This document shows, piece by piece, positions 50,154-54,078 of a stretch of 64,000 bases of DNA (the stretch's first letter is position 1; every line of letters starts with the position of its first letter). The notes under the pieces are model-generated. The model saw only the letters and a list, made by a program, of their open reading frames with translations. It was not told where the DNA came from and did not search any database. A program made the position numbers and the translations under genes. This stretch comes from Candidatus Nitrosopumilus sp. SW (lineage in GTDB: Archaea > Thermoproteota > Nitrososphaeria > Nitrososphaerales > Nitrosopumilaceae), in NCBI RefSeq assembly GCF_006740685.1, contig NZ_CP035425.1:1031687-1095686 (forward strand), written 5' to 3'.

Positions 50154-51545
50154 TTGGTGTTGTCACAGGTTTTTCATGATATTGAAAAAAAAATTATTGC
50201 ATCTCTAAAAGATAATCCTAAACAGACTCCTGAAAATCTTGAAGAATCTACAAAACTTTCACCTGACCAAATTCGACGTGGAATAGAGTGGCTGAAATTA
50301 AAAGAACTGGCAAATGTTGATGAGTCTCAAACAAGCCTTGTTAGTTTAGGAAAAAATGGAAAAGAGTCTCTTGAAAAAGGATTGCCTGAAAGAAGATTAC
50401 TAGAATTACTAAAAACAAAATCAAAATTATCTGATTTACAAAAAGAACTGGGTCCTGTATTTGGACCTGCAATGGGACTAGCAAGAAAAAACAATTGGGT
50501 AGAGGCATCAGCAGACCAAATCACCCTAAAAAATCCTCCAGATGTTTTGCCTGGAGAAAAATCTCTAAAACAAATTGGAGAGCAAAAACTATCTGCTGAT
50601 AAACTAGACTCTGATGACTTGTCTGGACTTTTGAGACGTCCTGACTTTGTTGTAGAGGAAATCGTAAAGACAAAACAAATTTCGTTAACTGATTCTGCAA
50701 AATCAATCAATCTTGATGCATCTTCAGGAGGAATTGATGTAGAGGCCAAAGTACCTGAAGTCTTTGTTGCCAGAACTCATCCACTAAAAGACACCATTGA
50801 TGAGATTCGTGAAATTTTTGTCACTTTGGGTTTTTCAGAAATCTATGGAAACATGACCCAATCAAGCTTTTGGAACTTTGATGCACTGTTTACTCCGCAG
50901 GATCATCCTGCAAGAGAATTGCAAGACACCTTCTATCTTGATGGAATTTCTGCCAAAAAAATTGCAACTCCTGAACAGATCAAAAAAGTTTCTGAATCCC
51001 ACAAGAAGAACTGGAGATACCAGTGGGATATCAATGAGGCACGCAAGATGGTTTTGCGAACCCATACTACTTGTGTTACAATAAAACATCTTGCAGAAAC
51101 AAAGCCTGATGAGGCTCGGGTATTCTCACTAGGACGTGTTTTTAGAAATGAAAAAGTCAGCTACAAGCATCTTGTAGAATTTAATCAAATTGAGGGTGTA
51201 GTGGTAGGAAAAGATGCAAACTTGAGAAACTTGATGGGAATTCAACGAGAATTCTACAAACGAATTGGAATTACAAAAATAAAATTCTGGCCAACATTTT
51301 TCCCATATACTGAACCATCACTTCAAACTATGGTGTACAATGAAAGACTAGGAAAATGGGTTGAACTCTTTGGAATGGGAATCTTTAGACCCGAAGTAAC
51401 AAAACCTCTTGGTATAACAAAACCTGTTTTGGCATGGGGTGGAGGCATTGAAAGAATTGCAATGCTAAAGTATGGTCTTGATGATGTAAGAGAATTTTAC
51501 AATAACAATTTGAATTGGTTGAGGAGTGCAACAAAATGCCAGTAG
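50154..51545 (+). CDS. pheS: Phenylalanyl-tRNA synthetase alpha subunit
   Basis: 463 residues. N-terminal winged-helix regions typical of archaeal/eukaryal PheRS alpha, then the class II core: motif 2 in VFSLGRVFRNEKVSYKHLVEFNQIEG, motif 3 in GWGGGIERIAML-like AWGGGIERIAML. The start is TTG at 50154. Overlaps pheT by 10 nt. Confidence 0.96.
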   Translation: MVLSQVFHDIEKKIIASLKDNPKQTPENLEESTKLSPDQIRRGIEWLKLKELANVDESQTSLVSLGKNGKESLEKGLPERRLLELLKTKSKLSDLQKELGPVFGPAMGLARKNNWVEASADQITLKNPPDVLPGEKSLKQIGEQKLSADKLDSDDLSGLLRRPDFVVEEIVKTKQISLTDSAKSINLDASSGGIDVEAKVPEVFVARTHPLKDTIDEIREIFVTLGFSEIYGNMTQSSFWNFDALFTPQDHPARELQDTFYLDGISAKKIATPEQIKKVSESHKKNWRYQWDINEARKMVLRTHTTCVTIKHLAETKPDEARVFSLGRVFRNEKVSYKHLVEFNQIEGVVVGKDANLRNLMGIQREFYKRIGITKIKFWPTFFPYTEPSLQTMVYNERLGKWVELFGMGIFRPEVTKPLGITKPVLAWGGGIERIAMLKYGLDDVREFYNNNLNWLRSATKCQ

Positions 51546-53179
51546 TAGAATTATCTTATTCCAGTCTTCAAAAACTAATTGGCAAGGCCTCAAAAAAACA
51601 GATTGCAGACTCATTGCCTTTCTTAGGACTGGACATTGAATCTGAAGACAAGGATCTAGTCCGAATAGAGTACAGTCCAAACAGACCTGACTATTCCACT
51701 GACTTTGGTATTGCATTGGGAATGCAAGGGCTGTTAGGTTTGAAGACAGGAGCAATCAAACTCAAAATAAAAAAATCAAAACAATATTCCATTACTGTAA
51801 AACCTGATGTCTCTAAAGTAAGACCGTTTGTGACTGGAATTGTTGCAAAAAATGGGAAAATTGATGATAAAACCATCAAGCAACTCATGGCAATGCAAGA
51901 AGACCTGCATTTTGGTATCGGACGAAAGAGAAAGAAATCATCAATTGGAATTCATGATTTAGATAAAATCCAATTTCCTCTAGTGTACACTACATCAGAT
52001 AGAAAGCACAAATTCACACCGCTGAATTCTGAGAAGGAATTGTCTGTAGATGAAATCCTCAAAACAACTGAAGTTGGAAAAGACTATGGGGATTTGCTTG
52101 CAAATTTCTCCAAAGTGCCTTTGATACTAGATACAAATAACAAGACTGTGTCATTTCCTCCAATAATTAATGCAGCAGTAACCACAGTAACTACAAAAAC
52201 AAAAAATCTCTTTGTTGAGGTTACTGGAATAAACAAGGCAGATGCAGAAGATATGTTATCTGTTGTTGCAACAATTCTGCAAAGTGCAGGATTCTCTTTG
52301 GAATCAGTTCAGATCTCTGGTGCAAAGAACACCTCTCCAAAACTTGCTGAAAGAAAAATGACTGTCAGTCCACTGTTGATTAATCAGACACTTGGATTAG
52401 ATCTTAATACATCAAAGATTGTCTCATCACTAAAAAAATCAAGACTGGATGCAACTGTAAAAGGCAAAAACATTGTTTGTGTTATTCCTGCATATCGTTT
52501 TGATATTTTTGGCCCAATGGATTTGGTCGAAGAAGTTGCTTTAGGCTATGGTATACAGAATCTCGAGCCTACAATAACACCTTCTCAGACACTTGGCCAA
52601 ACAAATCCAATTTCGCTAGAACTAAAATCACTCAGTCAAACTATGATTGGACTAGGATATCTTGAAGCATTGAATTCTAGTCTAACAAGCAAAAGAGTTC
52701 TTTATGAAATGGCAAACCGTGAACCAAAGACAATCATCTCTGTTCGTGATTCAAAAAGTCAAGAGCACACAATTTTGCGTGATTCAATTTTACCTGGATT
52801 GCTAGAAAATCTATCAAAGAACATTCATGAATCATATCCTCAAAAATTATTTGAAACTGGAACTGTCTTTTCTTCAGAGAATCCAATCTCTGAAACAATT
52901 AATCTATCTGTTGTTAGTGCACACCAGGATGCAAACTTTACTGAAATCAAATCTGTTTTGCAATCCATGCTAAAGACAGGATTTGGTTTAGAAATTACAA
53001 CAAAAACTACAGAGCATCCGACATTTGAGAAAGGTCACTGTGCATCTGTGATAATTGACAACAAAACAGTTGGCGTCATTGGAGAAATCAATTCCAAAAT
53101 CATTGAAAATTATAAAATCCGCGTACCTGTAGTCGGGTTTGAAATTTCCTTATCTAAGTCTATTCTCAAATCTCTTTAG
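51536..53179 (+). CDS. pheT: Phenylalanyl-tRNA synthetase beta subunit
   Basis: About 547 residues from ATG 51536 (MPVVELSYSSLQKLIG), with GAGGAG at 51520-51525 upstream. B1/B3/B4 domain (YSPNRPDYSTDFGIALGMQGLL), B5 and the catalytic-like core (YLEALNSSLTSKRVL...ILRDSILPGLLENLSKN) are present; the length fits archaeal PheT. Forms the (alpha-beta)2 enzyme with PheS. The 3' end overlaps an opposite-strand gene by 30 bp. Confidence 0.96.
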   Translation: MPVVELSYSSLQKLIGKASKKQIADSLPFLGLDIESEDKDLVRIEYSPNRPDYSTDFGIALGMQGLLGLKTGAIKLKIKKSKQYSITVKPDVSKVRPFVTGIVAKNGKIDDKTIKQLMAMQEDLHFGIGRKRKKSSIGIHDLDKIQFPLVYTTSDRKHKFTPLNSEKELSVDEILKTTEVGKDYGDLLANFSKVPLILDTNNKTVSFPPIINAAVTTVTTKTKNLFVEVTGINKADAEDMLSVVATILQSAGFSLESVQISGAKNTSPKLAERKMTVSPLLINQTLGLDLNTSKIVSSLKKSRLDATVKGKNIVCVIPAYRFDIFGPMDLVEEVALGYGIQNLEPTITPSQTLGQTNPISLELKSLSQTMIGLGYLEALNSSLTSKRVLYEMANREPKTIISVRDSKSQEHTILRDSILPGLLENLSKNIHESYPQKLFETGTVFSSENPISETINLSVVSAHQDANFTEIKSVLQSMLKTGFGLEITTKTTEHPTFEKGHCASVIIDNKTVGVIGEINSKIIENYKIRVPVVGFEISLSKSILKSL

Positions 53180-53413
53180 AAAAGATACTGCCAGCATTCC
53201 TATTCCTGTGACAAAAAATCCTATCCCTACAGCCAATTCAATTTTCATTCTTTGATGAATATTCTTTTTTTCTTCATCAAGCATGTAATACGACTCTGAA
53301 TCCAAATTTTCTAAAAACTGAATCTGCGGATAATCAAAAATTATGATTAGTATACCTAAAATCAAAACTATCATCCCAATGAAAAACAGTGTTAGGTTTT
53401 TGATTTCCATCAA
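53150..53413 (-). CDS. Small two-helix membrane protein
   Basis: 87 residues: helix LTLFFIGMIVLILGILIII, an outer or inner acidic loop (ENLDSESYYMLDEEKKNIHQRMK), helix LAVGIGFFVTGIGMLAVSFL and a basic end. Helical hairpin topology. No family recognised. The possible RNA at 53427-53608 lies directly upstream of its start. Confidence 0.65.
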   Translation of the reverse strand: MMEIKNLTLFFIGMIVLILGILIIIFDYPQIQFLENLDSESYYMLDEEKKNIHQRMKIELAVGIGFFVTGIGMLAVSFLKRFENRLR

Positions 53414-53426
53414 TGGTTTTTAGTAG

Positions 53427-53608
53427 GATGGGTTCTATTAGTAATCGCCCAAGAGCAGGCACGCAGACGGATTAGGATGATGTCGATCGTAATGATACCA
53501 ATGATTTCTAATTCACCCAGGCGTGCTACATTATGGGCAACCCCGGTTTCAGAACCCAAGGAGGTTTTGGCTAAAATACCAATGAGATTGTGCGAGTCAG
53601 AACCGGGG
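53427..53608. ncRNA. Candidate structured RNA with nested helices and a pseudoknot
   Basis: On paper four helices nest: GGGTTCT (53430-53436) with AGAACCC (53551-53557); GCCCA (53447-53451) with TGGGC (53534-53538); GCACGC (53459-53464) with GCGTGC (53521-53526); GGATTAG (53469-53475) with CTAATTC (53508-53514, one G-U). CCCCGGTT (53541-53548) with AACCGGGG (53601-53608) crosses the first, a pseudoknot. G+C is above the surroundings. Strand undecided: plus would precede the EVE gene, minus the small membrane gene. RNase P and SRP RNA signature sequences were not found. Open frames of about 67 codons on both strands are a caveat. Confidence 0.45.
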
Positions 53609-53658
53609 AACAATTTTCATAAACCATAAAACATCCCTTGATGCTACAAAATTTGAAA

Positions 53659-54078
53659 ATGGTAAATTACTGGTTGGCAAAACAAGAACCTAGCGGACCT
53701 AGAGGTTACAATTTTGAACAACTAAAAAAAGACAAAACTACAGTTTGGGACGGAGTCCATAACAATCTTGCATTAAAACACATGAGGGAAATGAAACCTG
53801 GTGATCTTGTATTTTTTTACCATACTGGTGATGAGAGACAAGCAGTTGGAATAATGCAAGTTACATCAAAACCATATTCCAATCCAAAAGAAGATGTTGA
53901 GCGATTTATCGTAGTTGATGTAAAATACAAAAAAGCACTAAAGCGTCCTGTAACACTTGATGAGATGAAGAAAAATAAAAAGTTCAAAGACTGGGAGCTT
54001 ATTCGAATCTCAAGATTGTCTGTAATGCCTGTTCCAAAACCAATTTGGGATGAGATTTTAAAGATTTCTCAAAACTGA
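53659..54078 (+). CDS. EVE-domain protein
   Basis: About 139 residues from ATG 53659 (MVNYWLAKQEPSGPRGY); in-frame starts at 53638 and 53641 would add up to seven residues. The pattern YWLAKQEP...VWDGVHNNLALKHMREMKPGDLVFFYHTGDERQAVGIMQV is the EVE (thymocyte nuclear protein 1-like) fold of the PUA/YTH group. EVE domains bind modified bases in DNA or RNA. The gene stands alone. Confidence 0.88.
   Translation: MVNYWLAKQEPSGPRGYNFEQLKKDKTTVWDGVHNNLALKHMREMKPGDLVFFYHTGDERQAVGIMQVTSKPYSNPKEDVERFIVVDVKYKKALKRPVTLDEMKKNKKFKDWELIRISRLSVMPVPKPIWDEILKISQN

Follow-up and report, generated by a model that had tools for sequence, protein, structure and literature searches.

The region considered here lies in Candidatus Nitrosopumilus sp. 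SW, in the spacer between pheT (51515-53179) and a gene for an EVE-domain protein (53659-54078); all positions, unless stated otherwise, are those of the window, that is, the whole 64,000-nucleotide stretch of DNA that was analyzed. In the oriented alignment of the genus, a block of about 170 nt on the + strand (53443-53612) is conserved, beginning around AATCGCCC (53443) and ending sharply at GGGGAACA (53612), and both flanks are unconserved except for AT-rich boxes. Genus conservation and covariance-model matches together mark this block as the core of a predicted two-hairpin H/ACA guide RNA. A structured RNA had originally been predicted at 53427-53608, an interval that overlaps the real RNA but is shifted relative to the conserved block; consequently, it took in about 16 nt of unconserved leader and missed the terminal ACA box (53610-53612).

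A TATA-like box, CAATGGTTTTTAGTAGGA, is located on the + strand about 25 nt upstream of the RNA (53411-53428) and represents a candidate promoter element. It is conserved across the genus alignment, and in other genera and families, its position is taken by TTAATATTTGA or boxes like TTAATTTAATAAG. The position of this AT-rich element, 25-30 nt ahead of the RNA, suggests that the RNA has a promoter of its own. The boxes before (53411-53428, CAATGGTTTTTAG) and after the RNA (53615-53640, AAACCATAAAAC) are near reverse complements, and hence both flanks carry promoter-like elements; the downstream one probably serves the EVE gene. A small reading frame is present on the - strand (53150-53413). 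It encodes 87 amino acids with two hydrophobic stretches and overlaps the 3' end of pheT in antisense; a relative was found in 12 of the 30 genus loci, with Pfam matches below the cut-off only.

The + strand folds with an energy of -54.5 kcal/mol (z -2.0, with 6 of 200 shuffles as good), and the - strand gives a z of -2.9. Folding energy alone is only mildly unusual and unconvincing; covariation is decisive. In the genus alignment (A1), which comprises 29 of the 30 genus loci, the omitted one (L023) being truncated by a contig end, compensatory changes occur in 5 of 39 pairs. A second, model-based alignment (A3) was built from 35 hand-picked, diverged loci, with split loci (genus g2 of family f2) and loci showing only hairpin II (family f8) omitted. 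Here, compensatory changes affect 31 of the 39 pairs and 91.6% of cells pair, values that lean towards the proposed structure because the alignment was fitted to it. None of 500 shuffles reached the observed covariation values, and slid structures paired in only 31-53% of cells. The presence of a structured non-coding RNA, as originally proposed, is thereby borne out by both the conserved block and the compensated pairs.

In the overall fold, a short helix encloses hairpin I, and hairpin II comes next. Both hairpins are composed of a lower stem, an internal pocket and an upper stem, with ACA directly after the stem; at the end of each upper stem, tandem GA letters are found, together with UGA in the 3' strand. 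The closing helix P1 pairs GCCCA (53447-53451) with TGGGC (53534-53538), and all five of its pairs are compensated in A3. In hairpin I, the lower stem is formed by GGCACGC (53458-53464) and GCGTGCT (53521-53527), with 3 of 7 pairs compensated within the genus and 6 of 7 across families. The upper stem and kink-turn comprise ATTAGGA plus TGA (53471-53480) on the 5' strand and AATGA plus TTCTAAT (53500-53512) on the 3' strand, as indicated by compensatory changes and conserved letters; in one homolog (L037), the top of hairpin I is reduced to GATGATAATAATGATT, a bare kink-loop. The pocket holds two candidate guides identified by the target search, GACGG (53466-53470), complementary to CCGUC of 23S rRNA, and ACCCAG (53515-53520), complementary to CUGGGU. 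The ACGG of the former is kept in 33-35 of the 35 homologs, and each letter of the latter is identical in 33-34 of them, one row being gapped. Each letter of the hairpin I ACA box (53528-53530) is found in 32-34 of the 35.

Hairpin II has a lower stem of CCCCGGTT (53541-53548) and AACCGGGG (53601-53608), in which 4 of 8 pairs are compensated in A3. Its left guide, AGA (53551-53553), which would pair with UCU of helix 69, is a weak arm and only partly conserved. The right guide, GUCAGA (53596-53601), is complementary to UCUGAC of helix 69. The kink-turn is formed by GA (53561-53562) on the less conserved 5' side and AATGA (53581-53585) on the 3' side, where TGA is present in 34 of 35 homologs, and the terminal ACA box (53610-53612) is found in all 35. 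Thus, the letters that are invariant or nearly so are the two ACA boxes, the kink-turn UGA, ACGG and ACCCAG in pocket I, GUCAG in pocket II and the CCCCG/CGGGG stem.

Several helices named in the original prediction coincide with this fold. The CCCCGGTT/AACCGGGG helix is present and kept in 29 of 29 full-length genus homologs, and the nested + strand helices are real, namely P1 and, in hairpin I, the lower stem and 53469-53477/53506-53514. The crossing helix of the proposed pseudoknot did not hold up: although this genome allows TGGGTTCT (53429-53436) to pair with AGAACCCA (53551-53558), the TGGGTTCT strand is located 5' of the conserved RNA and was found in only 1 of 30 loci. The direct repeat TCAGAACC (at 53549 and 53597) does exist on the sequence level, though not as a repeat unit, one copy being the left pocket of hairpin II and the other its right guide plus stem.

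With high confidence, the region is considered to encode a stand-alone, two-hairpin box H/ACA guide RNA of about 170 nt, whose hairpins I and II are aimed at the equivalents of E. coli U2586 and U1921, respectively. This reading draws on sequence, structure, covariation, conserved boxes and guides, rRNA complementarity and the presence of Cbf5-type and Nop10 genes; transcription, RNP assembly, the modified uridines and the physiological role are inferred. Both hairpins show the stem-pocket-stem arrangement with ACA after it, lower stems of 7 bp (I) and 8 bp (II), and 15 nt from pocket to ACA; the GA stem of hairpin I is 10 bp. According to PMC7991803 and PMC4652768, the lower stem of an archaeal H/ACA RNA measures 7-9 bp, the pocket-to-ACA distance is 14-16 nt and the GA stem has 8-11 bp, with 10 seen in crystals. 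The hairpins fit these rules provided that both G's of GACGG are assigned to the guide. The kink-turn TGA letters of hairpin I and of the 3' strand of hairpin II are present in 29-34 of the 35 homologs, and each pocket shows bipartite complementarity to rRNA, with a gap of 5 letters instead of 2 in hairpin I and a short left arm in hairpin II. Genes of the Cbf5 type (DKCLD) and for Nop10 were detected above the cut-off in the same genome. In the proposed mechanism, each hairpin, with its ACA box and a kink-turn cap for L7Ae, would be bound by Cbf5-Nop10-Gar1-L7Ae. Hairpin I would then hold the 23S peptidyl-transferase loop (CUGGGU..CCGUC) so that the U2586 equivalent enters Cbf5, and hairpin II would hold the 3' side of helix 69 (UCUGAC-U-C-UCU), where the U1921 equivalent (yeast psi2264) would be isomerized.

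A transcript of the - strand was rejected, as the G-U pairs of the covarying helices fall on the + strand; the strand assignment rests on pairing and not on the promoter, since an AT-rich box also stands on the far side. A C/D box RNA was likewise rejected, the C/D arrangement being absent from the alignment by inspection and Rfam giving no match. The Rfam scan found no family here at gathering level, and relaxed-threshold matches near the locus (DM_SisR1, SNORA62, FTX_1 and others) were far below the cut-off and treated as chance. The exclusion of RNase P and SRP RNA was also correct, both being found elsewhere in the same genome (RF00373 at contig positions 279358-279637 and RF01857 at 714309-714620). 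The description "unclassified" proved too strong, because the RNA can be assigned to the box H/ACA guide RNAs. It is an RNA of a known kind that is apparently uncatalogued at this locus. According to PMC7991803, two-hairpin H/ACA RNAs are reported to be rare in archaea, and a 2012 review (PMC3432209) notes that small RNAs had not been examined in any thaumarchaeon by that time. No H/ACA RNA of Thaumarchaeota was described in the open literature searched.

The RNA is single-copy in its own genome according to BLAST. When a 221-base query was searched against 61 related genomes, matches at 83-100% were obtained in 30 of 37 genus genomes, including its own (E below 1e-50); the 7 genus genomes lacking a match at this threshold include several incomplete ones. 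With a first covariance model (R1) and an E limit of 1, matches were obtained in 73 of 151 order genomes. Covariance modelling, which had been suggested as a check across Nitrosopumilales, revealed compensatory changes, and a model built from diverged homologs (R2) gave matches with E no higher than 0.1 in 143 of 150 class genomes; of the 11 genomes from other orders, 8 were matched. At phylum level, R2 matched 64 of 200 genomes at E up to 0.01, of which 28 lie outside the order, and the guide letters were visible by eye in most of 27 further loci inspected (31 fetched). Second R2 matches in two genomes (L274 in G201 and L276 in G228) were treated as false, being closely similar, coding-like stretches; weak R2 matches are therefore not to be trusted at face value. 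Named genomes contain 116 stretches with a 19-letter signature, and the 80 of these 116 matches that were listed belong to Nitrosopumilus, Nitrosarchaeum, Nitrosotalea, other archaea and one Pseudomonas. The RNA is kept by almost all ammonia-oxidizing archaea of this group and their kin.

Two families depart from the compact arrangement. Family f2 (L081, L082, L084, L087, L088) has roughly 100 nt between hairpins I and II, with a ATTATTATAAATGG-like AT-rich box about 30 nt before hairpin II, and judging from this layout, its hairpins look as if they had been turned into separate genes. In family f8 (L076-L078, L083, L086, L090), only hairpin II is recognizable beside pheT; hairpin I was not found next to it in these loci, perhaps through loss, relocation or divergence.

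Potential targets were scored over 981 candidate uridines of the 16S and 23S rRNAs of this strain, which stood in for the rRNAs of all homologs, with arms limited to 6 letters in the main ranking. In first scans with long arms, LSU 854 and other positions had come out on top for hairpin II; since the 6-letter limit was chosen after these scans, the ranks are descriptive and do not constitute a pre-set test. Positions were named after E. coli and yeast by counting, and the numbers used for E. coli U2584-A2587 are consistent with the table in PMC2584109. Hairpin I, ranked in 34 of the 35 homologs (L106, which lacks hairpin I letters, was left out), picks the 23S loop CUGGGU-UUAGA-CCGUC at U2677/U2678, the equivalents of E. 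coli U2585/U2586, and one of these two is in the top 3 in all 34 homologs with arms of 6. In most homologs, 5 rRNA letters (UUAGA) stay unpaired, compared with the canonical 2; L096 and L097 are exceptions in which the two-letter gap, at U2586, scores best. By median rank, LSU U2677 ties with SSU U1316 over all 34 homologs and leads it in a one-per-group set of 18. Hairpin II picks UCUGAC-U-C-UCU of helix 69 at U2017, the equivalent of E. coli U1921, which stands alone at the top by median rank. With arms of 6, U1921 is rank 1 in 19 of 35 homologs and among the three best in 30 of them; with arms of 7, it is rank 1 in only 12, and the left arm is short and variable. The patterns CTGGGTN{2,6}CCGTC and TCTGACTNTCT occur once each in the LSU locus, with 0.01 expected.

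The choice of sites is where the main competing explanation lies: the RNA could be an H/ACA RNA that acts on other positions, hairpin II on U1915/U1917 or U1923 and hairpin I on U2585 or another uridine. In its favor, the published HP2 and Pab40/Pf7 act on U1915/U1917 equivalents (PMC2584109), U1923 is within the top 10 for hairpin II in 17 of 35 homologs, U2677 (E. coli 2585) has a better median rank for hairpin I than U2678 (E. coli 2586), and some homologs outside the class carry GUUAG-type instead of GUCAG right guides in hairpin II. Against this stand the ranks of the helix 69 alternatives with arms of 6, where U1915 never falls within the top 10 and U1917 does so in only 3 of 35 homologs, as well as the presence of GUCAG next to the target uridine position in all 35. 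On balance, different sites seem rather unlikely.

A different possibility is that the RNA forms a cis-acting leader or trailer of a neighboring mRNA, with EVE downstream or pheT upstream. The original prediction had allowed for either a stand-alone RNA or a leader. In counts where some genomes appear twice, pheT adjoins the RNA in all 30 genus loci and in 61 of the 69 further loci that came from the order searches, and with pheT nearby almost throughout, read-through from pheT followed by processing could occur. However, the EVE gene is in the flank in 29 of 30 genus loci and only 27 of the 69 others, so it is absent beside many copies of the RNA; in addition, a spacer carrying an AT-rich box of its own separates the f2 hairpins, and the invariant part consists of trans-acting guide letters and two ACA boxes. 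A cis-acting role is thus very improbable, and a stand-alone RNA is favored over an EVE leader, because the RNA persists where EVE is missing from the flank and is preceded by the conserved AT-rich box about 25-30 nt upstream. Still less can be said for a small protein gene or a chance spacer structure. Open frames are present in this genome (67 codons on the - strand and 50 on the + strand), but neither is conserved, in line with the original view that no convincing gene is present: the longest - strand open stretch varies from 32 to 68 codons over 29 loci, the alignment contains single-base gaps, and base-pair covariation is strong. This last explanation is already refuted by the frame and covariation data.

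The box H/ACA guide RNA proposed here resembles several described RNAs. Two diverged homologs align with the HgcG model (RF00064) over its full length, in the expected position and orientation: L082 scores 28.1 bits (E 3.3e-4 in a search of 14 loci) and L254 scores 31.1 bits (E 3.6e-5 in one of 15 loci). Both scores, and that of a weak match to L075, lie below the 77-bit cut-off of the model. The copy of this strain matched neither HgcG nor any other Rfam family. A further HgcG match, in genome G180 (contig C41), was treated as chance, the locus being non-homologous. HgcG/Pab40/Pf7 of Thermococcales share with the present RNA the H/ACA hairpins with ACA boxes, a CCCG-rich lower stem in the last hairpin and the aim of that hairpin at helix 69. 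They differ in that Pf7 has three hairpins rather than two (PMC2584109) and in the right guide of the last hairpin, which is GUUAC in the HgcG model and GUCAGA here. The RNA probably works like HgcG and is probably related to it; it is kept apart from the HgcG family because none of the 150 class genomes passes the 77-bit gathering threshold.

In PMC2584109, Haloferax volcanii HP1 is predicted for psi2621 (E. coli 2586) and HP2 for psi1956/1958 (E. coli 1915/1917) in H. marismortui numbering, and Grosjean and colleagues regard the halobacterial HP1 and HP2 as homologs of Pf7 stems II and III. Compared by published description and not by sequence, the H. volcanii pair is similar in having two hairpins, with hairpin I fitting the HP1 site and hairpin II lying on the HP2 helix; the long spacer reported between the two in halobacteria resembles family f2. 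In contrast, the hairpins are adjacent in most homologs here, and hairpin II points to E. coli 1921 rather than 1915/1917. In yeast 25S rRNA, psi2264 in helix 69 is listed with snR3 (PMC8307265). A table in PMC2584109 equates yeast 2258 with E. coli 1915 and 2260 with 1917, and by counting from the first of these pairs, yeast 2264 corresponds to E. coli 1921, the site assigned to hairpin II; the likeness to snR3 is a functional analogy at this one site only.

It is very probable that the RNA directs pseudouridine formation at two 23S rRNA sites. A function is thereby assigned to a conserved "empty" spacer beside pheT in an abundant group of marine archaea, and a covariance model and named sites (U2586 and U1921) are supplied for thaumarchaeal rRNA pseudouridylation. 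If the U1921 site holds, it connects the modification of helix 69 in archaea with that in eukaryotes in a way that can be tested directly. A shift of target within helix 69 is plausible. As a more tentative proposal, somewhat short of an even chance, the RNA may belong to an ancient two-hairpin guide spread across the archaea and form its Thermoproteota branch, in which hairpin II switched by six nt in helix 69, from U1915 (Pyrococcus HgcG) to U1921. If true, archaea would possess a guide for the eukaryotic snR3 site, and thus a precedent for that inter-subunit bridge modification.

In seven loci from other classes (L246, L248, L249, L253, L255, L257 and L263), the hairpin I guides GACGG and TTTACCCA or TTCTACCCA persist, and the right guide of hairpin II is GUUAG/GUUAC-like, not GUCAG. 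These guides are closer to that of HgcG and could possibly represent a record of guide switching within helix 69.
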